DNA of 45,718 nucleotides. Source: Bacteroidales bacterium. GTDB taxonomy: Bacteria > Bacteroidota > Bacteroidia > Bacteroidales > UBA932. The DNA is taken from positions 1-45,718 of the forward strand of contig JAGCUK010000094.1 in the NCBI GenBank assembly GCA_017962925.1, read 5' to 3'. Both the position numbers and the translations under genes were made by a program. Every line of letters starts with the position of its first letter. Position 1 is the first letter of the stretch. The notes under the pieces were generated by a model, which searched no databases, was not told where the DNA came from, and saw only the letters and a list, made by a program, of their open reading frames with translations. Below, one piece after another: positions 19,469 through 34,533 of this stretch.

Positions 19469-19500
19469 TAACTTTCTGTAGCGCCTATGCAAAAAAATGT

Positions 19501-19508
19501 TATCTTCG
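19501..19508 (+). promoter_or_regulatory. Probable -7 box (TATCTTCG) of the Oar-like receptor gene
   Basis: Differs from TAnnTTTG at one position and lies 36 nt before the ATG at 19545. No clear -33 is seen. Confidence 0.4.
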
Positions 19509-19544
19509 CACCGGGAAATTTCGTATTACTTCATTTATACATTT

Positions 19545-22500
19545 ATGAAAAAATTCTTCAAGAATGTCGCACTCGTAGCAACCATGTTGTTCGCGGGTGT
19601 TGTCGCGTATGCCCAGATGACTACTTCAGCCGTCAACGGGCGTATCGTGGATGAGAGCGGCGAGCCCCTCGCAGGCGCAGTCGTTATCCTTGTTCACACT
19701 CCTTCCGGTTCACAGTATTATGCTGTGGCTAACAACGACGGTCGTTACACTATCGAAGGTGTAAGGCCTGGTGCAGACTTTACTATCGAGGTTTCCTTCC
19801 TTGGATGCCAGACCGTAAAGTACACCGACGTTACCCTGAACCTCGGTGAAACTTACAAGCAGGATGTGACCCTTACCTCCGGCGAGCAGCTCGCAGAGGC
19901 AGTTCTCGTCGTATCTGCTTCCAAGTTCACCACGGAGAAGACCGGTGCCAGCACCAACATCTCCTCCAGGCAGATGACCAGCATGCCTATGATCAACCGC
20001 AGCATCTCCGATGTCGCAAAGCTCTCTCCTTATGCAAACGGAATGAGCTTCGCAGGCGGTGACGGTCGTTCCACCAACTTCACCGTTGACGGATCCAACT
20101 TCAACAACAACTTCGGTCTGTCCGACAAGCTCCCTGGCGGTGGCAATCCTATCTCCCTGGACGCTATCGAAGAACTGCAGGTTGTGGTTGCTCCTTTCGA
20201 CGTCCGTCAGACCAACTTCATCGGAGGCGGTATCAACGCCATCACCAAGTCCGGTACCAACACCGTCAAAGGAACTGTCTACACTTACTTCCAGAATCAG
20301 GACCTCCGCGGTAACAAGATCAATGGTAACGACCTCGGCGACCGTGCGAAGGAGTCCAAGACCGTTTACGGCTTCACCGTGGGCGGCCCCATCATTAAGA
20401 ACAAGCTCTTCTTCTTCTTGAACTACGAGACCACCAAGCAGCCCGGTCAGGTTATCAAGTACCGCGCAAACAAGGGTGGTGAAGCCAATAAGGGCAATGT
20501 CTCCAGGACTACTCTCGACGACCTCAAGACCGTTCAGGAGTACATGAAGACCAAGTACGGATACGATACCGGTTCCTACACCGATTTCCCTGGCGACGAG
20601 TCCAACAACAAGCTCCTTGCCCGTATCGACTGGAACGTGGCTAAGGGCCACAGGGTATCGCTGCGCTACAACTACACCAAGAATACTGCTTGGAACGCCC
20701 CTAACGGAAACTCCTCCGATACCGGCTACCGTCTGAACGGAACCTACCGCGTCGGCAACGAGTCCATGGCTTTCGCAAACAACATGTATTCCATGGACAA
20801 TAAGGTGTCCTCCATCTCCTTCGACTACAACGCGAAGATCAACGACAAGGTTTCCAACCAGCTGCTCGTCACCTATTCCAACATCGAGGATATCCGCGGT
20901 TCCAGCTCTTCCGCATTCCCTCATGTCGATATCATCAAGAAGAACAGCGAGGGCGTATGGCAGCCTTACACGTCCCTCGGTTACGAGCTCTTCACCTGGA
21001 ATAATGGTGTTCACAATAAGGTTTGGACCGTCAAGGACGACGTGACCTATCTCATGGGCAACCACAAGATTGTCGCAGGTTTCAGCTACGAGCACCAGTT
21101 CGCCAACAACGCTTACATGCGTAACGGCGCCGGTTACTATCGTTATGCCTGGACCGATGAGGCCACCATCACCGATGTTCTCAACGGCACTCCCGAGTCC
21201 TTCGCAGTCACTTATGGCTGGAACGGAGAACTCAATCCTAACGCACAGGTCACTTTCAACCAGATCGGCCTCTATGTGCAGGATGAGTGGAACGTGAACG
21301 ATCAGCTCAAGCTCACTTACGGCGTGCGCTTCGACGACCTCCTCTTCGACGAGAGCGATATCGCAACCAACAAGGCGATTGCAGGCTACACCTTCCGCGA
21401 CGGTCTCACGATCGATACCGGCAAGTGGCCTAACAACCGCGTCCAGATTTCCCCTCGCGTAGGTTTCGTTTATGATGTGAAGGGTGACAACACCCTCAAG
21501 TTCCGCGGCGGCACCGGTCTCTTCCAGGGACGTCTGCCTCTCGTGTACTTCACCAACACTCCTACCAACGCAGGCCTCGTTCAGAACTCTGTTCAGTACA
21601 AGTCCACCTGGGCCAGCGGCGACCTTGTCAGCAAGGATGACAAGCTCCACGCATTCGACAGCGGCATGATCACCAACGTCAACGAAATGATCGACAAGCT
21701 CGGCCTCCAGAAGGAGCTCACCGATGCCAACCACGTTGCAGGTAGCACCATGTCCGGTGTTGATCCTAACTTCAAGATGCCCCAGATCTGGAAGACTTCC
21801 CTCGCAGTTGACTACCAGGTCCCTGCAAGCTTCCCTCTCACCGTCACGGCAGAAGGTATCTTCAACAAGACCATCTACGGCGTAGTGGTTGACAACATCA
21901 ACGTTGACAATTGCGACACCTGGGCTCACTTCAGCGGTCCCGACGATCGTCTTATCTATCCTGCCAACAAGGGCCTCATCAACGCTGGCAAGAACGCTCC
22001 TTACCTCACCAACACCACTGAGGGTTACGGCTACATCGGCAACATCACCGTCAACGCCGAGCCTCTCAAGGGCCTGAACGTAATGGCAGCTTACACCCGC
22101 ACCGAGAGCAAGGAAATCTCCGGCCTGCCCGGCAGTGACCCTCTCTCTACATGGCAGGGTCTCTACACCGTCAACGGATCCAACTATGCAACGCTCCAGC
22201 GTTCCCAGTATGTGGTTCCGGACAAGATCATCGCATCCGTCGATTATCACTTCCCTGTTCTCACCGGCCAGTTCGGTTACGACATGGACTTCGGTCTCTT
22301 CTACACCGGCATGACCTCCAGCGGTTATTCCTACTGCTACACCAACGACATAAATGGTGACGGCGTTAACAACGACCTCATGTACATTTATGCCAAGGGT
22401 AGTGACATCAACTGGAAAGATGCATCCACCGCTGATGCAAGCGCAAAGGCCTACGACGCATTCGTCGCTCAGGACAAGTATCTGCGCAGCCACAAGGGAC

Positions 22501-22835
22501 AGTATGCAGAGGCTTATGCCGCTCGTGCACCTTGGGTCAACCGCATCGACTTCCGTTGGGCGCACAACTTCAGCTTCAAGACCGGCAAGCAGGTCCACCT
22601 CCTTCAGTTCACCATCGACCTCCTCAACGCAGGCAACCTGATCAACTCCAAGTGGGGTGTTTACCAGAACAGCGCAATTTGCGGCAATAACCGTATCCTC
22701 AAGTATGAGGGCGTGAATGCAAGCAATGAGCCTACCTTCTCCTGGGCAACCGAGGCTACCAAGACCTACGACTACATTGTCGACAGCAGCCAGTGCTGGC
22801 AGCTCCAGTTCGGTCTGAGGTACAAGTTCAACTAA
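19545..22835 (+). CDS. Oar-like TonB-dependent receptor
   Basis: A 1096-aa outer-membrane receptor (start MKKFFKNVALVATMLFAGVV with signal peptide to ...VAYAQ; the 16 upstream codons are not signal-like). Domains: a carboxypeptidase-regulatory/CnaB-like unit at about 25-110 (VNGRIVDESGEPLAGAVVIL, NNDGRYTIEGVRPG); a plug at about 120-240 (FTVDGSNFNNNFGLSDKLPG, DAIEELQVVVAPFDVRQTNF, GGGINAITKSGTN); then a 22-strand-type barrel ending LQFGLRYKFN. The GGGINAITKSGTN/FFFLNYE pattern resembles the Oar group, whose members are linked in other bacteria to export or surface display of proteins rather than glycan uptake. No SusD partner follows. It is a single-gene unit closed by a strong terminator. 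A metK antisense link is limited to the shared promoter region. Confidence 0.9.
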   Translation: MKKFFKNVALVATMLFAGVVAYAQMTTSAVNGRIVDESGEPLAGAVVILVHTPSGSQYYAVANNDGRYTIEGVRPGADFTIEVSFLGCQTVKYTDVTLNLGETYKQDVTLTSGEQLAEAVLVVSASKFTTEKTGASTNISSRQMTSMPMINRSISDVAKLSPYANGMSFAGGDGRSTNFTVDGSNFNNNFGLSDKLPGGGNPISLDAIEELQVVVAPFDVRQTNFIGGGINAITKSGTNTVKGTVYTYFQNQDLRGNKINGNDLGDRAKESKTVYGFTVGGPIIKNKLFFFLNYETTKQPGQVIKYRANKGGEANKGNVSRTTLDDLKTVQEYMKTKYGYDTGSYTDFPGDESNNKLLARIDWNVAKGHRVSLRYNYTKNTAWNAPNGNSSDTGYRLNGTYRVGNESMAFANNMYSMDNKVSSISFDYNAKINDKVSNQLLVTYSNIEDIRGSSSSAFPHVDIIKKNSEGVWQPYTSLGYELFTWNNGVHNKVWTVKDDVTYLMGNHKIVAGFSYEHQFANNAYMRNGAGYYRYAWTDEATITDVLNGTPESFAVTYGWNGELNPNAQVTFNQIGLYVQDEWNVNDQLKLTYGVRFDDLLFDESDIATNKAIAGYTFRDGLTIDTGKWPNNRVQISPRVGFVYDVKGDNTLKFRGGTGLFQGRLPLVYFTNTPTNAGLVQNSVQYKSTWASGDLVSKDDKLHAFDSGMITNVNEMIDKLGLQKELTDANHVAGSTMSGVDPNFKMPQIWKTSLAVDYQVPASFPLTVTAEGIFNKTIYGVVVDNINVDNCDTWAHFSGPDDRLIYPANKGLINAGKNAPYLTNTTEGYGYIGNITVNAEPLKGLNVMAAYTRTESKEISGLPGSDPLSTWQGLYTVNGSNYATLQRSQYVVPDKIIASVDYHFPVLTGQFGYDMDFGLFYTGMTSSGYSYCYTNDINGDGVNNDLMYIYAKGSDINWKDASTADASAKAYDAFVAQDKYLRSHKGQYAEAYAARAPWVNRIDFRWAHNFSFKTGKQVHLLQFTIDLLNAGNLINSKWGVYQNSAICGNNRILKYEGVNASNEPTFSWATEATKTYDYIVDSSQCWQLQFGLRYKFN

Positions 22836-22856
22836 TCCGTTTTTCGGAATCCTGAA

Positions 22857-22886
22857 AAGCGCGGCTCGACGGCCGCGCTTTTTTTT
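22857..22886 (+). terminator. Intrinsic terminator after the Oar-like receptor
   Basis: AAGCGCGGC (22857-22865) pairs with GCCGCGCTT (22872-22880), loop of 6 nt, followed by eight T residues. The T-run directly abuts the -33 element of the next operon. Confidence 0.92.
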
Positions 22887-22915
22887 GATTTATTCCAAAG
22901 GAATAATTATATTTG
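22884..22915 (+). promoter_or_regulatory. Promoter of the nuclease/TonB operon with spacer dyad
   Basis: TTTG (22884-22887), a 20-nt spacer and TATATTTG (22908-22915). The spacer holds a perfect dyad TATTCC-AAA-GGAATA (22891-22905) exactly between the two promoter elements, where a bound repressor would block RNA polymerase. The leader to the first ATG is about 60 nt and AT-rich. Confidence 0.7.
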
Positions 22916-22982
22916 AGGCTACATTTGAACGAAAGCAACATAATTGAAACAAAACAAATAACAATAATCATTTTTTGCGTAT

Positions 22983-25445
22983 ATGAAACTCAGATCTTTT
23001 CTTGCAATTGCAGCGCTCTCCACGCTGGTATTCGCATCCTGTGTGCCCACGGAAGAGAATCTTGGCGAGGCCAAGGTAACCGTGAGCCCCACCGAAATCA
23101 CCTTCGGGGCCGGTGATGAGCAGCAGCCCGTCACCCTCGTAGCAACCCGCGACTGGCACATCTTCTCCCAGCCGGAATGGGTCGCCCTCGACAAAACCGA
23201 AGGCAGTGCTTCCACCAAAGAACAGACAGTAAAAGTCTCCGTCGAGGCTAACAAGGGCCACGACCGCGAAGGCGAACTTGTCTTCACAATCGGCCTTGCC
23301 AGGGCCAGCCTGATCATCAAGCAGACCGGCGAGCAGGGCGAACTCAAAAAGGGCACTGGCACCAAGGATGATCCCTTCAGTGTGGCCGGCGTGATCGAGT
23401 ATGTGAAGACTCTCGAGGCCGACAAGTCGAGCACCGAGCAGTTCTTCGTGATGGGTAAGGTCTCCACCATTACTCAGGACTTCACCTACAATGTGTCCAA
23501 TGGCAATACCTTTGGCAATGCCCGCTTCAACATCTCCGATGATGGCGCTGCCAGCAACGAGTTTATCTGCTACAACTGCTACTATCTTGGCAACAGGAAG
23601 TTCACGGCAGGCGAGACCGATATCAAGCTCGGCGACAATGTGATTGTATGCGGACTCGTGGTGAACTACAAGGGTAACACCCCTGAATTCGTAAGTGGAA
23701 AGAACTTCGTCTATTCTCTTAATGGCAAGAGCGAAGGTGGCGGAGACGCTGCTACTTCTGCCACTCCTACCGGAACCGGCACCGAGGCCGATCCTTTCAA
23801 TGTGGCTGCAGCAATCAATGCCGCCAAGGTCCTGAAGTACACCGATACCAAGAACTACGAGAAACTCGAAGGCGTCTATGCGGTCGGTAAGATCAGCGCC
23901 ATCAAGAGTCTCTCTTGGGATGCCAGTGCTTCTGATTACTATGGCAATGCCGAGTATTCCATCGTCGATGAGGGTTACTCCTCAGTGCTTGGCGTCTATC
24001 GCGGATTCTACTATAACGGCGAGAAGTTCACCGCACAGGATCAGATCAAGGTCGGTGACGTGGTTCTCGTCCTCGGCGATCTCTGCAATATGTTCGGCAA
24101 CACTCCTCAGTTCACCACCGGCAGCAAGATCATCAAGATCAACGGCGTTGGCAAGGAGATTAAGACCGTAACCGGCACCATCACCGAGACCGTTGCTGCG
24201 GAAGATAACTCCAAGGTCATCGTGGCAGAATCCATTGTGGCTGCCAAGTCCCTCAAGGGTGTGATTGTCACCGACGGCACCACCAACGTGTATGTCTACA
24301 CCGACAAGGCTCCCGAGGCCGCGATCGGCGACAAGGTAAAGATTGAGGCCACCAAGACCACTTACTATGGCCTGCCCGAATTCACCGAGCCCACTATCAC
24401 TGTGCTGAGCAGCGGCAATACCGTTCCTCGCACCGAGCTGAAGGATATCACCAAGACCATCGACTCTTATACCTCTTCCACCACCGATTACCTCACCGCC
24501 ACTGGCACCCTTGTCAAGGAAGGTGACTATTATAATGTAAAGGTGGATGGCGCAACACGCATCATTTCCCCTTCGCAGCTGGATTCTGCAATCGATCCCA
24601 GCAGCCTGCTGAATACGAGAGTTGTAATCACCGGCTACTTCAACACCATCAATGCTTCCAAGAATATCGTCAATGTCATTGCGACCGAGATCAAGGCCGG
24701 CAATCCGGACGAGAAGTATTGCTCTGTCTCCACAAAGGATATCAAGGTCGCCGGTTCTGCCACTGAGGCCAGTTTCACCATCACTGCAAATGCAGCGTGG
24801 ACTGCCACCAGCGACAAGGCCACATTCGTGGTGGATCCCACATCGGGAAGCGCAAATGCCACAGTTAAGGTTACCTTCCCTGCAAATGAGACCGACGAGG
24901 CTGTGGTCGCCAACATCAAGGTCGCCTGCGCAGAGGCCAATGCGGAATACACCGTAGTCATCACCCAGGCCAAGAAGAGCGCGGCCGGAGAAAAGAGCTT
25001 CGTTAAGGTCACTACCGCTCCTTCCAGTTGGGTGGGCACCTATCTCATCGTCAATGAGGATGATAAGGTCGCTTTCGATGGCAAGGGAACTTCAGATGCC
25101 GTCAATCTCAACATTGCAGTAGAAATCGAGTCCGGTGCAATCAAAGCAACCGAGGCGAACCTTGCTTCTACCGTTGCCGTTGAGGCCATGGATGGCGGAT
25201 ATGCGATTAAGGCCGCCAGCGGTAAATACATCTATGGTAAGTCTGCTTCCAACGTTCTGCAATTCGGCGATTCCCAGGTTCTGATAACCATCGCCCTGGC
25301 ATCTGAAGGCAATGCAGAGATTGTAGATAAGTCGGCTGATACCATCTTCATGTATAACGCCAACTCCGACCAGAAGCGCTTCCGCTTCTACAAGAAGACT
25401 TCAACCGCCCCCAAGAAGGTTCATCTCTACAAACTCGAAGACTAA
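22983..25445 (+). CDS. Surface lipoprotein with BACON and repeated OB-fold-like domains
   Basis: An 820-aa lipoprotein (signal ALSTLVFASC, Cys19). Residues about 30-115 form a BACON domain (DWHIFSQPEWVALDKTEGSA ... ASLIIKQTG). Two related repeats follow at about 120-250 and 260-395, each opening GTGT..DPF.VA..I and containing GNA.F.I.D / KVGD.V.V.G..... N.G.TP.F. These look like the OB-fold (DUF6359-type) modules of Bacteroidota. Further OB-like strands are at about 400-580, a second BACON-like unit at 585-665 (ANAAWTATSDKATFVVDPTS) and a C-terminal beta domain ending KKVHLYKLED. OB folds commonly bind nucleic acids or oligosaccharides. As first gene of an operon with two secreted nucleases, nucleic-acid capture at the surface is the inference. 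There is no catalytic motif. Confidence 0.75.
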   Translation: MKLRSFLAIAALSTLVFASCVPTEENLGEAKVTVSPTEITFGAGDEQQPVTLVATRDWHIFSQPEWVALDKTEGSASTKEQTVKVSVEANKGHDREGELVFTIGLARASLIIKQTGEQGELKKGTGTKDDPFSVAGVIEYVKTLEADKSSTEQFFVMGKVSTITQDFTYNVSNGNTFGNARFNISDDGAASNEFICYNCYYLGNRKFTAGETDIKLGDNVIVCGLVVNYKGNTPEFVSGKNFVYSLNGKSEGGGDAATSATPTGTGTEADPFNVAAAINAAKVLKYTDTKNYEKLEGVYAVGKISAIKSLSWDASASDYYGNAEYSIVDEGYSSVLGVYRGFYYNGEKFTAQDQIKVGDVVLVLGDLCNMFGNTPQFTTGSKIIKINGVGKEIKTVTGTITETVAAEDNSKVIVAESIVAAKSLKGVIVTDGTTNVYVYTDKAPEAAIGDKVKIEATKTTYYGLPEFTEPTITVLSSGNTVPRTELKDITKTIDSYTSSTTDYLTATGTLVKEGDYYNVKVDGATRIISPSQLDSAIDPSSLLNTRVVITGYFNTINASKNIVNVIATEIKAGNPDEKYCSVSTKDIKVAGSATEASFTITANAAWTATSDKATFVVDPTSGSANATVKVTFPANETDEAVVANIKVACAEANAEYTVVITQAKKSAAGEKSFVKVTTAPSSWVGTYLIVNEDDKVAFDGKGTSDAVNLNIAVEIESGAIKATEANLASTVAVEAMDGGYAIKAASGKYIYGKSASNVLQFGDSQVLITIALASEGNAEIVDKSADTIFMYNANSDQKRFRFYKKTSTAPKKVHLYKLED

Positions 25446-25448
25446 ACC

Positions 25449-26630
25449 ATGCTTCGCAGGATTGCCAGACCCTTTATTCTCTTTTCGGTGATTGCAGGCC
25501 TCTTCGCCTGCACACCGGCGGAGGATCCCGTCGATTACGAAGCCACCGTGGTGCCCCGCAGCTCCACGGTGTCTTCCGGCGACGGCAGCGTGTTCGTGAC
25601 AATCACAGCTAAGGGCGAATGGTCCATCGAACTGGAGTATCCCGCCGGCGGACCTTCGGACTGGGCCACTATGGATCCTGCTTCCGGCACCGGAAGCCAG
25701 GGCGATGCACGCCTGCGATACAGCGAGAATACGGAAAAGACCGAGAGAAGTGTCACCCTTGTACTGAAATCCTTAGGGGTAAAGGTCAATACTGCCACCG
25801 TATACCAGCAGGGTAAGGACGGAACGTCTCCGTCTGAGCTTGGGGACGGTGCCTTCCCTGCCAAATGGCTGGAATTGCCCGAAACCAAGGCAGGGGACGG
25901 CCGAGTCGTTCTCGCCCACGACATGAGCGGCCAGAGATATTTGAACAGCACCCAGAGCGGAGTGCGCAACTGGTCCTGCTATTGGGACTACAATGAACAC
26001 CTTTCCATCTGGGTGGCCTATCCTCTGAACAAGGCCCTGATCGGCAGCGGCAATCGCACGAATGCGTGGGGGCTGGACCCTATGCTTCCCAGCAACATGC
26101 AGCCGGATCTCAGGGGAGGCTCTTATGGGGGAGGATGGACTCGCGGGCACCAGATTCCATCCGCCGACAGGCTGAACTACGCCGCCAACGTATCCACCTT
26201 CTACGGCACCAACATGACGCCGCAGGACTACGATTTCAACTCCTACATCTGGGCAAACCTCGAAGGTCGCATCCGCAGCTATGCCTCCACAGCCGACACT
26301 TTGTATGTGGTGACCGGATGCGTTTTGGAAGGATCTCACCAGAGCAGCGGCAGCAGTTCTGGCTTCCGGGTGAAAGTGCCTGCCGCCTACTTCAAGGCCG
26401 TACTTCAGAAGAGCACCAGCTCCGCCATCGGCCATAAGGGATACCGCGCAGCGGCATTTTACCTGCCTCACGATACAACCATCTCCCGAGGGAATTTCCT
26501 GGATTACCTGATTTCGGTAGATGAACTTGAAAGTAGGACGGGCATCGATTTCTTCGTGAACCTGCCGGGAGTGCTCGGAAAGAGTGAAGCGGATGCAATC
26601 GAAGCCGAAACCCCGAGTTGGGCGCGTTAA
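25449..26630 (+). CDS. Secreted DNA/RNA non-specific endonuclease (NUC1) lipoprotein
   Basis: A 393-aa lipoprotein (LFACTPAED, Cys21). An N-terminal BACON domain is at about 30-122 (GEWSIELEYP...DWATMDPASG...ATVYQQG). The catalytic domain at about 150-390 is of the NUC1/beta-beta-alpha-metal type: WTRGHQIPSADRL carries the catalytic His234 in the (D)RGH motif (Thr replaces Asp), followed by YGTNMTPQDYDFN with the metal-ligand Asn region. Enzymes of this family cut DNA and RNA without sequence preference. The lipid anchor and BACON domain suggest display at the outer membrane. The start is 3 nt after the preceding stop, so the two are co-expressed. Confidence 0.88.
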   Translation: MLRRIARPFILFSVIAGLFACTPAEDPVDYEATVVPRSSTVSSGDGSVFVTITAKGEWSIELEYPAGGPSDWATMDPASGTGSQGDARLRYSENTEKTERSVTLVLKSLGVKVNTATVYQQGKDGTSPSELGDGAFPAKWLELPETKAGDGRVVLAHDMSGQRYLNSTQSGVRNWSCYWDYNEHLSIWVAYPLNKALIGSGNRTNAWGLDPMLPSNMQPDLRGGSYGGGWTRGHQIPSADRLNYAANVSTFYGTNMTPQDYDFNSYIWANLEGRIRSYASTADTLYVVTGCVLEGSHQSSGSSSGFRVKVPAAYFKAVLQKSTSSAIGHKGYRAAAFYLPHDTTISRGNFLDYLISVDELESRTGIDFFVNLPGVLGKSEADAIEAETPSWAR

Positions 26631-26647
26631 TACGATAAACAATAACC

Positions 26648-27727
26648 ATGATGAAAAAGTATATTTACATCCTTGTCGCGGCACTTCTGCTCGCCATGCC
26701 CTTCAGGGCGGATGCAGGCAAGCACCGCAGTTATGTGATAGGTTTCTACAACCTCGAAAACCTTTTCGATACCTATCACGATGAAGGCAAGAACGACTAC
26801 CAGTATCTTCCCGACGGTCAGAACGAGTGGACCGAAGCGAAGTATGCCAAGAAGCAGCACAATATGGCCAGCGTGATCCGCGCCATGAAAGAAGATAACG
26901 GCTGCTGGCATGCGGTGCTGGGCGTCAGCGAAATTGAGAACCGTCACGTGCTGGACGACCTGGTGAACCAGCCGGAGATCGAAGAAGCCAACTATCAGAT
27001 CGTGCACTACGACAGCCCCGACCGTCGCGGTGTGGACTGCGCGCTTCTCTATCGTCCCGAGATCTTCAAGGTGATTGCCAGCGAGGCCATCCCCTTCACA
27101 TTCGACCCTTCCCGCATCGACTGGAGCCAGTGGACCCAGGAGGAGAAGAATGACTTCAAGACCCGTGACGTGCTCATGGTCCGCGGCACCATCGACGGCG
27201 AGATGTTCGCATTTTACGTGGCCCACCTTCCTTCTCGTCTGGGCGGCAAGGGCGCTGACCTGCGTCCCCGCGGAGCGGAGATTATCTACGATCACGCCAT
27301 GAAGCTGCAGCAGGAATTCCCCGGCATCAAGATAGTCGTCATGGGAGATATGAACGATAACCCCACCGACCGTTCCATGACCGAATTTCTCCGTGGAAAG
27401 GAGAAGATCGACGAGGTGACCGACGAGGACTTCTTCGATCCGTTCCTGAGCATGATCAAGGCCGGTTACAGCTCCCTGTACTATCAGGGCGCCGGCAATA
27501 TCTTCGATATCGTAATGGTCAACAACGCCCTGGCAAATGCCAAGCGCGGAACCTTCCAGATCCGCCCCATAGTGCAGAAGAAGTACTACGGTCGCGTGTT
27601 CAGCAAGCCGTTTATGACCAACCAGAGCGGGCCCTACAAGGGAACCCCGTTCCGCACCTTCTCCGGTGGCGCGTTCGTCGGCGGATATTCCGACCACTAT
27701 CCCACCTATATCGTTGTCTCCAAATAA
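26648..27727 (+). CDS. Secreted endonuclease/exonuclease/phosphatase-family protein
   Basis: A 359-aa protein with a signal peptide (MMKKYIYILVAALLLAMPFRADA; the second Met is also a possible start). The EEP fold motifs are present in order: FYNLENLFD (Asn35, Glu37), GVSEIENRHV with the metal Glu, DRRGVDCALLY, VAHLPSR, VVMGDMNDNPTD and the C-terminal GGYSDHYP. The family includes DNase I-like nucleases, phosphodiesterases and phosphatases. Given the neighbours, processing of oligonucleotides released by the NUC1 enzyme is the simplest role, but nucleotide or phosphoester hydrolysis is equally open. It lacks a lipobox, so it is probably periplasmic or released. Confidence 0.85.
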   Translation: MMKKYIYILVAALLLAMPFRADAGKHRSYVIGFYNLENLFDTYHDEGKNDYQYLPDGQNEWTEAKYAKKQHNMASVIRAMKEDNGCWHAVLGVSEIENRHVLDDLVNQPEIEEANYQIVHYDSPDRRGVDCALLYRPEIFKVIASEAIPFTFDPSRIDWSQWTQEEKNDFKTRDVLMVRGTIDGEMFAFYVAHLPSRLGGKGADLRPRGAEIIYDHAMKLQQEFPGIKIVVMGDMNDNPTDRSMTEFLRGKEKIDEVTDEDFFDPFLSMIKAGYSSLYYQGAGNIFDIVMVNNALANAKRGTFQIRPIVQKKYYGRVFSKPFMTNQSGPYKGTPFRTFSGGAFVGGYSDHYPTYIVVSK

Positions 27728-27735
27728 TTTAGCAT

Positions 27736-30700
27736 ATGATTAAAAGATTATTCATCATAGCGGCATTCGCCCTTGCGGCAGCAGTGAATGCAGGCGCCCA
27801 GGAATATTCTGCCACTGAGCAGGAAGGAAAGGGCGGCTGGTTCGCAGGCGGCGGTGTCGGTGTGAATATCGGCGCAGACGGACTCCGCGGATCGAATCCC
27901 TCCTTCTCCGTCGGCATTCCTGCCATCCAGGCATATGGCGGAAAGTGGTTCTCGCCGGTCTATGGCGCCCGCTTCGGCCTCCAGGGCCTCCACGCCGCAG
28001 GTTTCTACGGGCACAAAGGATTTAACTTCCTTTCTACTCCCATCGACCTGTTCGTGAATATCCCCGGAGTGCTTTTCGGATGGACGAAGGATAACTTCTT
28101 CAACGCCTATCCCTATGTTTCCGTGGTGCCTTCCATCGGTATTCCCAGCGGCTACGGTTCGATAGGCGGCGGTGCTGGTCTGCTCAGTGTGATCCGCATC
28201 CAGGGCCCCTGGTCGGCATATGTCGACCTCCGCGGCACTATCGCCGGTGAGGCGATGACCGGAATCAAGGGCCAAGGTATATTCGGAATGGCCTCGGTGA
28301 CCGCCGGTGTGCATTACGACTTTGACTATGCCACCGTCGCGGCACCTGCACCCTCCGCATCCACCGGCAGCGCAGCACCCGTCCCCGGATCCGATTTCCT
28401 CTCCAAGATTGCCGCCCAGGGCCTGGAAGAACCCAAGCCCGAGCATAGCCAGGCGGCGCTGATAAGCCTCGGAGACTACACCGGCGGCGTCAAAGGTGTC
28501 ATCATCAACCGTTCCACGAAAGAGGCCATCCAAGGAGCGCATGTGCACCTCTTTGCCGGTGCCACCGAACTCACCGACGTGATGACGGATGCCGGCGGCG
28601 CATTTGCGGTCAACGGCCTCGCCAACGGCAGATACAGCCTGGTGATCGATGCTCCCGAGTGCCTCGAGAACCGCGTTGAGGTCACGGTCAACGATGGATA
28701 TGTGAAGAACATGTTCAACATCTCCATGACCGCCATCCAGCGCGTGACGGAGATCGACGACGACTCCTTCGCCCAGTTCGACATGGACGACTCCGGCTAC
28801 AACGATAACCCCACCATCCTCTTCGGCTCCAACGACGTCTTCAATAACATCGCCGGCTACAACTTCAGCTCCGTGCGTTTCCGCGCCCGCGGCTATTCCT
28901 CCGAGAGCCAGGATGTCTACCTCGCAGGAGTGAAGATGAATGATGCCATCACCGGGTACTCGCCCTTCTCCCTCTGGAGCGGTCTGAACGAGGCGATGCG
29001 CACCAAGGAGACCACCAACGGCCTGGAGATTTCCGACTATGGCTTCGGCGGATACAACGGCGTCACCAATATCTTCGGCAACGCCACCAACGTGCGTAAG
29101 GGCATGCGCGGAAGCGTTCTCACCAACAGCACCCTCTATCGCCTGCGTCTGATGGGATCTTACGCCACCGGCCTGATGGATAACGGATGGGCCTTCGCGG
29201 CGAACATCTCCGCACGTCTCGGCGGCAACGACTGGATCGACGGTGTTTACTACCGTTCCTTCGCATACTACCTCGCAGCCGACAAGGTGCTGGACGACAA
29301 CAACAAACTGAGTTTCGTCTTCTTCGCTACCCCCGGCCAGCGCGGTGCTCAGAATGCATCCACCCAGGAAGTTTACGACCTGGTGGGAGACAATATGTAC
29401 AACTCCAACTGGGGCTACCAGAACGGCAAGGTGCGCAACGCCCGCGTCCGCAAGACCAACGAGCCTGTTGCAATTGTGAAGTATGAATACAGCCCTTCCG
29501 ACGAGTTGAACGCCTCCATTACCGCTCTCTACCGCTTCGGCAAGAACGGATACACCGCACTCGACTGGTACGATGCACAGGATCCCCGTCCGGACTACTA
29601 CCGCAACCTTCCCAGCTACTTCTATGATTCCAATCCCGACCTGAACCGCAACAACGATATCAAGTACGGATGGGCGAACGAGGTATGGGGACATGCCAGC
29701 ATGTATCCTGAACTGACCCACATCAACTGGGACCGCTTCTACTATGTGAACCGCATCCAGACGGATGAGAAAGGCAAGAGCCGTTCCAAGTACGTACAGG
29801 AAGAGCGCCACGTGGATCAGCGGGACTTCAACCTCTCCACCAACTTCAAGTATCGTCCTTCAAGCACCTTCGTGCTGACCGGCGGACTGGATGCCCGCAT
29901 CAACCGCACTGAATACTACAAGCAGATAGCGGACCTGCTGGGCGGCGATTACTTCATGGATATCGACAACTTCGCCGAGCGCGACTTCGCGGCAACGCCC
30001 TACAAACTCCAGAACGATCTGGAATACTACATGCAGCACGGCACTGCCAGGACCCTCGGCGTGGGAGATAAATATGGTTATGACTACTACGCCCAGGTGC
30101 GCAACTACGGCGGATGGTTCAATGCCAGGATGACCCAGGGCAACTTCAGCGCCAACCTCGGCGCCCGCCTCGGCTACGAAAGCTTCTGGCGCGAGGGCCT
30201 CATCCGCAAAGGCCTCTTCCCCGGCCTCGATGAGACCGGAAAGAAGATCGTGGTGGATGGCACTACAGTCGAGCCCACCTACGAGCACGACGGCAGCGTG
30301 GTGACATCCTACGGCAAGAGCAAGGTCAATTCCTTCCTCACCTACGCCGCGAAACTCGGCCTGAACTATGTGATCGGCGGCTCGCAGCGAGTGTATGCCA
30401 ACCTCGGGTACTTCAACGACGCACCCAAGTTCAATCAGGCATTCCTCTCGCCCCGTACCCGCAATTCGGTCGTAGACGACCTCACCACCATCAAGACCAC
30501 CTCGGCCGATATCAACTGGCAGTATTCCGCCAACGGAATCAATATCCGCACCACGGCATACTACACCTTGATCAAGGACCAGTCCAAGGTCATGAGCGCT
30601 TATGACGACCTCCAGAATGCTTTCTCGAACTTCGCAATCAACGGAATCGACCAGCTGAACATGGGTATGGAACTCGGCTTTAAGGTTCCCACCTACGTGG

Positions 30701-31314
30701 TTCCCAACCTGTCGCTGCAGGGAGTGCTCGCCGCAGGACGCTACATCTACACATCCAATCCTGTGATGACCCAGACTGTGGATAACAGCGCCGAGGTCAT
30801 CATGGACAAGGTGAAGGTCCCTTACTGGAAGAGCACTTTGATGCCGGACGGCACGGTGAAACAGCACTATGTGCCTTCCACTCCTCAGATTGCCGCCAGC
30901 CTCGGCCTTGCATACAACCGCAACTACTGGTTCATCGATGCCGACGTGGAGTACTTCGGAGAGTCTTATCTGGATATGAATCCTCTCTACCGCACCGACT
31001 CCGCGGTCAACGGCCCCGACAATCAGATCACCGCCGCCGAGATCGAGTACATGACCGATCAGGAACGCTTCGATCCTGCCGTGCTGGTCAACCTCTCCAT
31101 CGGCAAGAGCTGGTACATCCATTACAAGTATCAACTGGGCTTCTCGTTCAATGTCAAGAACCTTCTCAACAACACGAACGTGAAGACCGGCGGATATGAG
31201 CAGACCCGTATGGTGGACAACACCGTCAGCAAGAGCCAGTATTACCGCTTCGATCCGAAGTACTTCTACATGGCCGGCACCAATTATATGTTGAACGTTT
31301 ATTTCAGATTCTAA
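27736..31314 (+). CDS. TonB-dependent receptor with an extra N-terminal barrel domain
   Basis: A 1192-aa protein with a signal peptide (ends ...AVNAGAQ). Residues about 30-195 are a small-barrel-like domain (GGWFAGGGVGVNIGADGLRG, YGGKWFSPVYGARFGLQGLH, SVTAGVHYDFDYATV), followed by an Ala/Pro/Ser linker (200-215). A CnaB/carboxypeptidase-regulatory unit is at about 250-325 (GVKGVIINRSTKEAIQGAHV). The plug is at about 330-460 (FNNIAGYNFSSVRFRARGYS, SQDVYLAGVKMNDAITGY), and a large barrel ends GTNYMLNVYFRF. It is the only transporter of the operon, which suggests it imports the product of the neighbouring nucleases. No SusD-like protein is encoded; the OB-fold lipoproteins may take that place. 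Gaps are 8 nt before and 4 nt after. Confidence 0.87.
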   Translation: MIKRLFIIAAFALAAAVNAGAQEYSATEQEGKGGWFAGGGVGVNIGADGLRGSNPSFSVGIPAIQAYGGKWFSPVYGARFGLQGLHAAGFYGHKGFNFLSTPIDLFVNIPGVLFGWTKDNFFNAYPYVSVVPSIGIPSGYGSIGGGAGLLSVIRIQGPWSAYVDLRGTIAGEAMTGIKGQGIFGMASVTAGVHYDFDYATVAAPAPSASTGSAAPVPGSDFLSKIAAQGLEEPKPEHSQAALISLGDYTGGVKGVIINRSTKEAIQGAHVHLFAGATELTDVMTDAGGAFAVNGLANGRYSLVIDAPECLENRVEVTVNDGYVKNMFNISMTAIQRVTEIDDDSFAQFDMDDSGYNDNPTILFGSNDVFNNIAGYNFSSVRFRARGYSSESQDVYLAGVKMNDAITGYSPFSLWSGLNEAMRTKETTNGLEISDYGFGGYNGVTNIFGNATNVRKGMRGSVLTNSTLYRLRLMGSYATGLMDNGWAFAANISARLGGNDWIDGVYYRSFAYYLAADKVLDDNNKLSFVFFATPGQRGAQNASTQEVYDLVGDNMYNSNWGYQNGKVRNARVRKTNEPVAIVKYEYSPSDELNASITALYRFGKNGYTALDWYDAQDPRPDYYRNLPSYFYDSNPDLNRNNDIKYGWANEVWGHASMYPELTHINWDRFYYVNRIQTDEKGKSRSKYVQEERHVDQRDFNLSTNFKYRPSSTFVLTGGLDARINRTEYYKQIADLLGGDYFMDIDNFAERDFAATPYKLQNDLEYYMQHGTARTLGVGDKYGYDYYAQVRNYGGWFNARMTQGNFSANLGARLGYESFWREGLIRKGLFPGLDETGKKIVVDGTTVEPTYEHDGSVVTSYGKSKVNSFLTYAAKLGLNYVIGGSQRVYANLGYFNDAPKFNQAFLSPRTRNSVVDDLTTIKTTSADINWQYSANGINIRTTAYYTLIKDQSKVMSAYDDLQNAFSNFAINGIDQLNMGMELGFKVPTYVVPNLSLQGVLAAGRYIYTSNPVMTQTVDNSAEVIMDKVKVPYWKSTLMPDGTVKQHYVPSTPQIAASLGLAYNRNYWFIDADVEYFGESYLDMNPLYRTDSAVNGPDNQITAAEIEYMTDQERFDPAVLVNLSIGKSWYIHYKYQLGFSFNVKNLLNNTNVKTGGYEQTRMVDNTVSKSQYYRFDPKYFYMAGTNYMLNVYFRF

Positions 31315-31318
31315 GCGT

Positions 31319-32512
31319 ATGAAAAAGTTATTTATTGCAATCGCGGCTTTCGCAGCCCTTGTTTCCTGCCAGAGTCTGAAAGAAGAATGGCAGCCGGTCC
31401 TGACCTTCGGGAACAACGAACCCGGAGAGATGAAGCTTTGGAAGGAGTCCGACCTGGCCTCCTATGGCTTCAACGGCACCATCACCACCATCAAGGAGAT
31501 GAAGCTCCAGTATAACAAGAAGACCGATTTCGAGAAGAATCGCACCAGCGGCCACACCATTACCGATAACGTATGGATCAAGGGCCAGGTGGTGTCAGAC
31601 GATAAGACCGGTAACCTCTACCGCGAGATTTATCTCCAGGATGCCACCGGTGGGATCGACCTCAAGCTCGGAAAGTCTTCGCTGTACAGCGACTACAGGC
31701 TCGGCCAGTGGGTGTATGTAAAGTGCCAGGACCTCTGCATCGGAGCATACAACGATATGCCTCAGCTCGGTCTGGAGCCAGACAACACCTCCACCAACGA
31801 GTATGAGACCTCCTATATCGACATCCAGGCGATGATCGACACTCACGTGTTCCGCAGCGACTACGACACTCCCGTGACGCCTAAGACCGTTACCCAGGCA
31901 GAGATTACCGCCAGCCTTTCCGCTGGCTTCCAGGGAGACCTCTGGGGCACGCTGGTGAAGGTAGAGGGGTTGAAGTACGGCAACGAGATCTTCGCGCTGG
32001 TTTATCCTCACGGCATCCTCGCCCATAAGAAGGAGAACCCCTACAACCGTATCTTCCTCTCGGACGCCGGAACTTGGGGAATCACCACCTGGAGTATGTC
32101 CAAAGCCAAGTATATTGAATATATCCAGGCAGGCAACTTCGACTCTGCTGTTGTGGGCAGTGGTGCCACCAAGTACGGCAACATCCTCACCAAACCTAAG
32201 GATTATGCCAATCAGATGGGTGAGAGCGTGATCACCGCCTTCGGCCAGGACGCCAATCTTACTTATAAAGAGATGATGATCAAGTACGCCACCGCGAACT
32301 ATGTGTCCCATTACTTCAAGATGGGTTCCACCGAGATACAGGTGCGTACCAGCGGCTATGCCAAGTTCGCCGACCAGGCGCTGGATTCCCGCATCGTCGG
32401 AGGATCCACCGTGGATATCACCGGCATCATCACCATTTACAGCGGTTCGGCACAGATGTCGCTTATCACCGCGCCCGACGACAAAGACAATCCTTCAGTC
32501 AAGATTAATTAA
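31319..32512 (+). CDS. Lipoprotein with DUF5689-like OB-fold domain
   Basis: A 397-aa lipoprotein (FAALVSCQSL, Cys17). The N-terminal half (about 60-165) has WIKGQVVSDDKTGNLYREIY, LQDATGGIDLKLG and LGQWVYVKCQDLCIG, the pattern of DUF5689 modules, which are predicted OB folds in Bacteroidota surface proteins. The C-terminal half ends in another strand-rich unit (VDITGIITIYSGSAQMSLIT) that may be a second OB-like fold. It is encoded 4 nt after the TonB receptor, a position where SusD-type partners are usually found. A role in binding ligand for the receptor is the inference. The stop shares one base with the next start. Confidence 0.75.
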   Translation: MKKLFIAIAAFAALVSCQSLKEEWQPVLTFGNNEPGEMKLWKESDLASYGFNGTITTIKEMKLQYNKKTDFEKNRTSGHTITDNVWIKGQVVSDDKTGNLYREIYLQDATGGIDLKLGKSSLYSDYRLGQWVYVKCQDLCIGAYNDMPQLGLEPDNTSTNEYETSYIDIQAMIDTHVFRSDYDTPVTPKTVTQAEITASLSAGFQGDLWGTLVKVEGLKYGNEIFALVYPHGILAHKKENPYNRIFLSDAGTWGITTWSMSKAKYIEYIQAGNFDSAVVGSGATKYGNILTKPKDYANQMGESVITAFGQDANLTYKEMMIKYATANYVSHYFKMGSTEIQVRTSGYAKFADQALDSRIVGGSTVDITGIITIYSGSAQMSLITAPDDKDNPSVKIN

Positions 32513-34533
32513 TGAAACGCATTTTCACAGTTATTACGCTTGCACTCTCGCTTATGGCTTGCAACCGCACCAACCCTTTCCTCACCGAGTGGGACACTCC
32601 TTACGGGATTCCTCCTTTCGATGAGATAAAGGTTTCCGACTATATCCCCGCCATCAAGGCCGGCATCAAACAGCAGCAGGCTGAAATCGATGCCATCACC
32701 GCCAATGAGGAAGCCCCCACCTTCGAGAATACTATCGCACCGCTGGAACTTTCCGGAAGCATACTCTCCAAGGTCGTGGGAGTGATGTACAATGTGGCCG
32801 AGACCGACCGCAGCGACGCCCTCGACAAGGCAGTGGAGAAGGCTATCCCTCTGATGAGCGCCCACGAAGACAATATCTCCTTCAACAAGGCTCTGTATGA
32901 GAGAGTCGCCGCTGTCTACAATGGCGACCAGAGCTCCCTCACCCGCGAGCAGCAGATGGTGTTGAAGAAGCATTTCGAGGGCTTCGAGCGCGAGGGCATC
33001 GGCCTGCCGGAAGAAAAGCAGGCACGCCTCAAGGAGATCAATGCGGAGATAGCATCCAAGACTCAGGTGATAGGCAATCATATCCTCGCAGAGAGCAATG
33101 CTTTCAAGGAGAAGTTCGGGTTCAGCGTGAGCGCTTTCCCCGACAAGATGACCTCCACCTCCGACCGCGAACTGCGCAAGGCCTACTACGAGGCCTATAC
33201 CACCCGCGGCCATAACGGCAACGAGAACGACAACGCCCTGCTGGTGATCGAGGTGCTGCGCCTGCGTCAGGAGAAGGCTAAGTTGTTGGGATTCCCGAAC
33301 TCCGCTACCTACACCCTCGACAATAAGATGGCCCACGATCCTGCCACCGTCGATAACTTCCTCACCGGCATCATGAAGGCTTCCACCGCCAAGGCGAAGG
33401 AAGAGATTGCCGACATGCAGAAGGTGATGGATGAGGATGTGGCCGCCGGTGTTCTGCCCGCAGGCTCGAAGATCGAGCCTTGGGACTGGTGGTACTATGC
33501 CGAAAAGGTGCGCAAGATCAAGTACGATCTCGATGATGAGGCCGTGAAGCCTTATTTCCAGAAGGATTCCGTGCGTAACGGCATCTTCACGGCAGCAAAG
33601 TGGCTCTACGGAGTGAATGCTGAGCTGCTCGAGGGCGTGCCCGCATATAATAAGGAATGCGTCCAGACCTGGAAGCTCACCTACGACGACGGCTCTCTCA
33701 TCGGCATCTTCACCACCGACTATTTGCCTCGCGACAGCAAGCGCGGAGGCGCGTGGATGAACAACGTCCGCGATCAGTATGTGGATGCCGAAGGAAACGA
33801 CGTGCGTCCCATCATCGTGAACGTGGGCAATCTGGCCGAGAATATGAACGTGGATCAGGTGCAGACCGTCTTCCACGAGTTCGGACATGCTCTTCACGGG
33901 CTGCTGACCAAGTGCCACTACGCTTCCGTGAGCGGCACTTCCGTTACCCGCGACTTCGTGGAGATGTTCAGCCAGTTCAACGAGAACTGGGCCTTCCAGC
34001 CCGAACTGCTTGCCAAGTATGCGAAGAATGCCGAGGGCGAGGTGATTCCTGCCGAGCTTGTGGAGAAGATTAACAACTCCCTCAAGTTCAACCAGGGCTT
34101 CATGACCACCGAACTTGCGGCCGCTTCCATCCTGGATCTCAAGTGGCATGAGCTGGCAGATATCCCCGAGGATATCACCACCCGCGAGCAGGCTACTGCA
34201 TTCATCGACAGCTTCGAGGCGACCATCGCCGAAAAGATAGGGCTGAATCCGGAAATCACCTTCCGCTATCGCACCACCTACTTCAACCACATCTTCTCCA
34301 GCGGTTATAACACGGGCTACTACGGCTACCTCTGGAGCGAGGTGCTGGATAAGGATGCATTCAGCATCTTCGAGGCTTCTCCTAACGGCCCGTTCGACCT
34401 TGAACTCGCGAAGAAGTTCAAGGAAACCTTCCTGGAGAAGGGCGGCAGCGAGGAACCCATGATTCTTTACAAGAGTTTTGCAGGCCGCGAGCCTGATTCC
34501 CAGGCTTTCCTGAAGGGCAGAGGCTTGTTGTAG
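32512..34533 (+). CDS. dcp: M3-family peptidyl-dipeptidase (Dcp-like) lipoprotein
   Basis: A 673-aa zinc metallopeptidase with a lipoprotein signal (LSLMACNRTNPF, Cys17). The helical N-terminal half is followed by the catalytic HEFGHALH at 455-462, preceded by VNVGNLAENMNVDQVQTVF, and by EMFSQFNENWAF with the third zinc-ligand Glu. Near the end HIFSSGYNTGYYGYLWSEV holds the family's substrate-binding Tyr/His loop. Dcp removes C-terminal dipeptides from oligopeptides. The start overlaps the previous stop by 1 nt (TAATG), so it belongs to the same transcript. It may recycle peptides from proteins bound to captured nucleic acid, or be a passenger. Confidence 0.92.
   Translation: MKRIFTVITLALSLMACNRTNPFLTEWDTPYGIPPFDEIKVSDYIPAIKAGIKQQQAEIDAITANEEAPTFENTIAPLELSGSILSKVVGVMYNVAETDRSDALDKAVEKAIPLMSAHEDNISFNKALYERVAAVYNGDQSSLTREQQMVLKKHFEGFEREGIGLPEEKQARLKEINAEIASKTQVIGNHILAESNAFKEKFGFSVSAFPDKMTSTSDRELRKAYYEAYTTRGHNGNENDNALLVIEVLRLRQEKAKLLGFPNSATYTLDNKMAHDPATVDNFLTGIMKASTAKAKEEIADMQKVMDEDVAAGVLPAGSKIEPWDWWYYAEKVRKIKYDLDDEAVKPYFQKDSVRNGIFTAAKWLYGVNAELLEGVPAYNKECVQTWKLTYDDGSLIGIFTTDYLPRDSKRGGAWMNNVRDQYVDAEGNDVRPIIVNVGNLAENMNVDQVQTVFHEFGHALHGLLTKCHYASVSGTSVTRDFVEMFSQFNENWAFQPELLAKYAKNAEGEVIPAELVEKINNSLKFNQGFMTTELAAASILDLKWHELADIPEDITTREQATAFIDSFEATIAEKIGLNPEITFRYRTTYFNHIFSSGYNTGYYGYLWSEVLDKDAFSIFEASPNGPFDLELAKKFKETFLEKGGSEEPMILYKSFAGREPDSQAFLKGRGLL

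Follow-up and report, generated by a model that had tools for sequence, protein, structure and literature searches.

An operon of nuclease, receptor-like and lipoprotein genes in a Bacteroidales genome: a probable cell-surface system for the capture, cutting and import of DNA

The window considered here, a stretch of 45,718 nt from a Bacteroidales bacterium (contig JAGCUK010000094.1 of assembly GCA_017962925.1), carries between 22884 and 34533 an operon of six plus-strand genes, A to F, whose products probably form a cell-surface machine to capture, cut and import DNA. The imported DNA may serve transformation, food or both. Two of the genes, D and E, match an adjacent pair of transformation genes of Riemerella anatipestifer, and this makes the import of DNA, beyond its degradation for phosphate or carbon, the best-supported step of the proposal. 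Across the phylum Bacteroidota these two known transformation genes are tied to a third, C, which encodes a likely nuclease, a link that bears on gene exchange among these bacteria; lineages were also found in which a NUC1 nuclease and OB-fold lipoproteins have joined the receptor, DUF5689 and EEP genes. The preliminary description of this DNA had proposed a Sus-like surface system for nucleic acid in which OB-fold lipoproteins replace SusD; the present analysis supports it in part, namely a surface nucleic-acid system whose receptor-lipoprotein pair takes the position of SusC-SusD. RNA as a substrate, a nutritional use and the release of peptides by the M3 peptidase are possible.

The Riemerella anatipestifer pair and the conserved gene core

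A transposon screen of 3,000 R. anatipestifer mutants for natural transformation led to two adjacent genes that are essential for this process, RA0C_RS04915, which encodes an outer-membrane protein with a CarboxypepD_reg domain, and RA0C_RS04920, which encodes a DUF5689 protein; markerless deletion of either one brings transformation below detection (Table 2 of PMC8459023). The same source describes R. anatipestifer as transforming without pilus homologues, and leaves open how DNA passes the outer membrane and is converted to a single strand (PMC8459023). We located the corresponding locus with the published comEC primer in the genome of strain CCUG25054, the strain of the paper being ATCC 11845. 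Its gene order is recA, four genes, comEC, two genes, EEP, D and DUF5689, with recA recognized by eye and comEC by Pfam. With recA at RS04870 and an increment of five per gene, comEC falls at RS04895, as published, and hence the EEP gene at RS04910, D at RS04915 and E at RS04920; these tags come from counting, since the two strains differ and ORFs (open reading frames) below 80 codons were not called.

In the CCUG25054 genome a single D homologue is full-length (622.8 bits; the next best, at 124.8 bits, is partial), and there are one DUF5689 protein and two EEP proteins, the better of which (318.5 bits) adjoins D. Window D (27736-31314, 1192 amino acids) aligns with the R. anatipestifer protein at 29% identity over 948 columns (327 bits), window C (26648-27727, 359 amino acids) aligns with the EEP neighbour at 178 bits, and window E (31319-32512, 397 amino acids) with the DUF5689 protein at 52 bits, within the DUF5689 part. 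D is thus the orthologue of RA0C_RS04915 by full-length similarity, by its place in the tree and as the single full-length match, and E is the counterpart of RA0C_RS04920 by domain and position. In the tree, 29 D proteins split from two receptor paralogues at 100/100, with R. anatipestifer among the rows of family f21 and family f18 as the sister group of the window's own genus. The EEP neighbour is common to both loci; the window differs in having C on the strand of D, in adding A, B and F, in an E protein without the C-terminal domain and in a ComEC of its own genus that lacks the OB domain.

The D profile, searched against 296 genomes of the phylum at a threshold of 1e-20, matches 93 of them; besides the window's own genome, 43 genomes have a single match of at least 540 bits, the match is split in G262 and G147, and most of the remaining genomes match in part. 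Gene neighbourhoods were compared in 56 loci, comprising 15 of the same genus, four of the same order, 36 of the 43 full-length phylum matches and that of R. anatipestifer, and leaving out G214, G266, G297, G093, G222, G158 and G170, the two split matches and the D locus of G025. In 55 of the 56 loci E comes after D on the same strand, at a distance of up to 700 nt (up to 125 nt in 52), and in 40 of the 53 loci that can be assessed C is found upstream of D, no more than 260 nt away, G035, G032 and G305 being cut off upstream of D. On these two counts, the conserved core, as judged from gene order, is the EEP-receptor-DUF5689 trio (C-D-E).

The surroundings of this core vary. C shares the strand of D in all 15 same-genus loci and in both loci of family f18, and is divergent in the other 23. 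B stands upstream of C in these same 17 loci and in none of the remaining ones, the cover upstream of D being about 1.3-1.5 kb in 16 of the 56, where a B gene further up could be hidden. In each of the 15 same-genus loci examined that have D at full length, B, C, D and E stand in the same order, a recurrence which argues that the arrangement is not due to chance. An A-type gene adjoins B in 12 of them (one locus is cut off and none was called in two), and F lies beside E, or one gene beyond, in 11 of the 15 and in none of the loci examined outside the genus. Conservation of gene order beyond close relatives, set beforehand as a test of the preliminary description, extends across the phylum for C-D-E and no further than the own genus and family f18 for B-C-D-E, the full A-to-E order being confined, among these loci, to the own genus. 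The simplest reading of these gene orders would be that the C-D-E core was inherited vertically and that B (and A) were added in one lineage.

The adjacency of D and E homologues across the Flavobacteriaceae was known before (PMC8459023); what is new here is the link to the EEP gene and the wider spread. A literature search, with bioRxiv and most subscription journals outside its coverage, returned no report of a connection between the RS04915/RS04920 pair and an EEP gene and no description of a NUC1-EEP-receptor-DUF5689 operon. The kind of system is known, and the operon adds to it a further component that can be tested.

Proteins of the operon and a proposed mechanism

The domain calls of the preliminary description hold by Pfam for BACON, NUC1, EEP, DUF5689 and M3; D, which it called a TonB-dependent receptor, has no plug or barrel match. 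We describe D as a divergent, TonB-dependent-receptor-like outer-membrane protein. Pfam finds in it CarboxypepD_reg alone (residues 252-331), it matches none of the NCBIfam families, and the matches of its profile to solved structures are confined to the CarboxypepD_reg part. The profile does reach a receptor paralogue that carries Plug and barrel domains, which makes D receptor-like, but not a member of the SusC/RagA-type family. Window D is about 200 amino acids longer than its relatives, which measure 960-994 amino acids in the 15 same-genus loci; the profile match starts at 28477, and the extra N-terminal part (27736-28476), which precedes CarboxypepD_reg, is glycine-rich and beta-barrel-like by eye. 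Among viral contigs, the D alignment gave 95 pattern matches, none of them confirmed, and window E had no relatives.

E, which starts 4 nt past D, is a DUF5689 lipoprotein (PF18942, 1e-42). It stops after the DUF5689 part, where the aligned proteins of loci L024, L025 and L026, from other families, extend further; proteins of the RS04920 type are described as having a second, C-terminal domain, DUF5017 or choice-of-anchor J (PMC8459023). E has no meaningful match among solved structures (best E-value 0.16), and the DUF5689 profile also matches in the Bacillus subtilis control genome. The D-E pair resembles SusC-SusD in that the operon encodes a CarboxypepD_reg outer-membrane receptor and, after it, a lipoprotein, alongside degradative enzymes, and differs in that none of the six proteins matches the SusD domain (E-value 0.01) and the operon has no carbohydrate enzyme. 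Membership of the SusC-SusD systems was rejected on this lack of a SusD match and on the absence from D of NCBIfam, plug and barrel matches.

The RGH, NLEN/SDH and HEFGH motifs that had been noted in B, C and F are all present in the translations. C is an EEP-fold phosphodiesterase (Exo_endo_phos_3, PF19580, 2.1e-90) and the phylum-wide enzyme of the core; the motifs NxEN, ExE, GDxND and SDH occur in all 23 aligned EEP proteins, and no relative of C was found among solved structures at an E-value of 0.01. In the order-level relative G029, a second EEP (PF19580) gene stands beside comEC in convergent orientation (L112:3270-4337). B (25449-26630, 393 amino acids) combines a BACON domain with Endonuclease_NS (PF01223, 7.4e-38), and by this domain and its RGH motif it belongs to the NUC1 (DNA/RNA non-specific endonuclease) group. 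Its best solved relative is the nuclease 2o3b (2e-22), with RGH kept in the alignment, and it also aligns with the Serratia nuclease, an alignment that likewise preserves RGH.

A (22983-25445, 820 amino acids) is the proposed DNA-capture protein, a lipoprotein in which Pfam finds BACON_2 (6.8e-12) and BACON (3.4e-10). The OB folds previously ascribed to it can be stated for the family more readily than for the protein itself, for which the PF01336 match is weak (E-value 0.029); in the family, PF01336 is found at E-values of at most 0.05 in 9 of 15 members, this weak match included (best 6.1e-20), and BACON in 14 of 15, so that an OB assignment judged from such profiles is firm for the A family and weak for window A alone. 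Two internal OB-like repeats of A (23340-23735 and 23751-24176) are 37% identical. In a locus of family f18 (L088:13130-15790), the protein at the A position, just upstream of the NUC1 gene, carries DUF5689 (1.7e-23), which hints at a kinship of A and E. F (32512-34533, 673 amino acids), the last gene and a genus-level accessory, encodes a lipoprotein of the M3 peptidase family (Dcp/oligopeptidase-like; Peptidase_M3, 2.5e-104). All N-termini were judged by eye, without a predictor: those of A, B, E and F are lipobox-like, in agreement with the lipoboxes reported earlier, and that of C is signal-peptide-like.

From the orthology and the enzyme content we infer DNA uptake by the operon, with DNA as the cargo here, TonB as the source of energy and distinct tasks for B and C. 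Lipoprotein A, with its OB and BACON domains, would hold extracellular nucleic acid, and the lipid-anchored nuclease B would cut it, acting like the entry nucleases EndA and NucM. E would then pass the DNA to D, whose putative TonB-dependent-receptor-like barrel would move it across the outer membrane, and the exported enzyme C would trim or convert it on one side of that membrane. C-D-E would be the ancestral core, in which D and E are the counterparts of the R. anatipestifer transformation pair.

DNA uptake weighed against other roles

In standard competence systems a nuclease is required to remove the strand that is not translocated (PMC12455585). The nuclease domain of the standard ComEC (PMC12455585) has no equivalent among the nine Bacteroidota ComEC proteins scanned, none of which matches a beta-lactamase-like domain, and a separate nuclease is therefore wanted, a job that C or B could do. 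Nucleases with the fold of B serve transformation in Streptococcus pneumoniae (EndA, PMC3764208) and Moraxella catarrhalis (NucM, PMC6384898), and NucM is placed with EndA and the Serratia nuclease in the beta-beta-alpha metal nuclease family (PMC6384898). B shares with EndA and NucM this family and the RGH motif, a likeness that rests on PF01223 and the Serratia nuclease rather than on a direct alignment, and is likewise a cell-associated nuclease beside a DNA importer; it differs in its BACON domain, its lipobox-like N-terminus and an operon shared with an outer-membrane receptor, and its role is putative. In R. anatipestifer, transformation is lower in tonBA and tonBB mutants, with iron uptake unimpaired in the former (PMC8383284), which fits a TonB-driven uptake step without proving it.

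Several observations weigh against the proposed capture, cutting and import of DNA. D has no plug or barrel match in Pfam, either in the window (at 0.01) or in R. anatipestifer, and E resembles the R. anatipestifer protein little beyond DUF5689. The R. anatipestifer screen did not recover the EEP gene, and the main text of the paper has no mention of RS04910 (PMC8459023); the screen was probably not saturating, since RS04920 had no transposon hit and was added by markerless deletion once polar effects had been noticed. Moreover, 11 of the 13 loci without C next to D belong to genus g23, where C is present in 3 of 14. In the own genus, ComEC has 352-394 amino acids and the Competence domain alone in four genomes (for example L108:1680-2738); DUF4131, the OB domain of ComEC, is found in none of these four and in five of five outside the genus, R. 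anatipestifer included. Support of transformation by ComEC variants without the OB domain is described as not demonstrated (PMC12455585), and the stripped ComEC counts against transformation in the genus without excluding it. comEC also occurs in 40 of 41 relatives regardless of the presence of D and E.

A further point of this kind is the loss of D and E within the genus. Full-length D and a strong E occur in one identical set of 16 of the 25 same-genus genomes, an agreement to which linkage and incomplete assemblies contribute. Four of the nine genomes without full-length D retain a strong EEP match (G001, G008, G015 and G019). In the first three, the EEP gene runs directly into the M3 gene, D and E are gone, and tblastn found no remnants of either in these loci; B lies upstream of the EEP gene in G001 and G008, A is also present in G008, and the contig of G015 ends within the EEP gene. 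In G019, E is absent and the D-like protein is shortened to 542 amino acids. D and E thus tend to be lost as a pair, and the genes left behind stay useful in their absence; the enzymes can serve without the importer. The persistence of C and F in G001, G008 and G015, with B in two of them, also favours the preliminary description.

One reading, possible but held tentatively, is that C-D-E is an ancestral Bacteroidota outer-membrane DNA translocon in which the EEP enzyme is the missing entry nuclease of the R. anatipestifer model, that in the own genus, where ComEC would be a channel only, surface NUC1 and EEP took over DNA processing outside the cytoplasm, and that some species later dropped the translocon and kept the nucleases. 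The reduction of ComEC to its channel domain and the genomes that keep C and F without D and E (with B in two and A in one of them) fit a rather unlikely alternative in which A, B and C digest extracellular DNA and RNA, D-E bring in oligonucleotides as a source of phosphate, nucleosides or carbon, and the system plays no part in transformation in the genus; an operon that unites two broad nucleases with a peptidase would suit such digestion. Against this stand the requirement of the D-E orthologues for transformation in R. anatipestifer (PMC8459023) and the retention of dprA and the comEC core, near-universal as these are. The own genome has matches to dprA, the comEC core and HHH_3, the last at family level and without implying an orthologue of RS02645; dprA was found in 37 of the 41 relatives, and the presence of comEC or dprA was rejected as proof of competence because both are so widespread.

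Import could also be a separate matter altogether, with A, B, C and F forming a nuclease module for the dispersal of biofilms or host DNA that is merely co-transcribed with an importer D-E. Operons without D and E exist, and NucM of Moraxella also affects biofilms (PMC6384898); such a module is nonetheless improbable, since C adjoins D across the phylum, divergently in 23 loci, where co-transcription alone is insufficient as an explanation, and the B-C-D-E order occurs again in family f18. The EEP fold serves many phosphodiesters. C might accordingly act on phospholipid head groups or inositol phosphates, with D-E importing the product, and as C has no solved relative at an E-value of 0.01 its substrate cannot be read off; the NUC1 nuclease and OB lipoprotein next door, the DNA-uptake phenotype of the D-E orthologues (PMC8459023) and the second EEP gene beside comEC in G029 make this a very improbable choice. 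Capture, cutting and import of DNA is the most likely role of the operon.

Operon layout, promoter and neighbouring genes

The six genes are packed as the preliminary description had it, and the ORF coordinates reproduce its gaps of 3, 17, 8, 4 and -1 nt exactly. The single promoter it proposed is also borne out: a TTTG-N20-TATATTTG element lies at 22884-22915 on the plus strand, immediately 3' of an intrinsic-terminator-like hairpin (22854-22883, plus strand; 13 pairs with perfect 9-bp arms) that sets the operon apart from the outer-membrane protein gene upstream. We take this element to be a Bacteroidota-type promoter; the pattern occurs at three sites in the window, against 0.28 expected from shuffles. 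With the hairpin directly in front of this promoter, the operon probably forms a unit apart from the upstream receptor-like gene.

The spacer between the promoter boxes contains a perfect 17-bp dyad, TTATTCCAAAGGAATAA (22890-22906), which is operator-like. No exact copy of the 15-bp inner part of this dyad was found among 115 loci, and the TCCAAAGGA core is kept between the promoter boxes of one close relative alone (L038); a conserved operator at this site was rejected on these grounds, and no regulation is claimed.

The upstream gene (19497-22835) encodes an outer-membrane protein with Pfam domains OMP_b-brl_4 and CarboxypepD_reg, and its relatives lie 5' of the A genes in the same-genus loci L030, L033, L035, L037 and L041. 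In R. anatipestifer, an ORF of 1400 amino acids with a Cas9-like N-terminus by eye (L105:14211-18413) lies one gene past D-E and is followed by two smaller ORFs.

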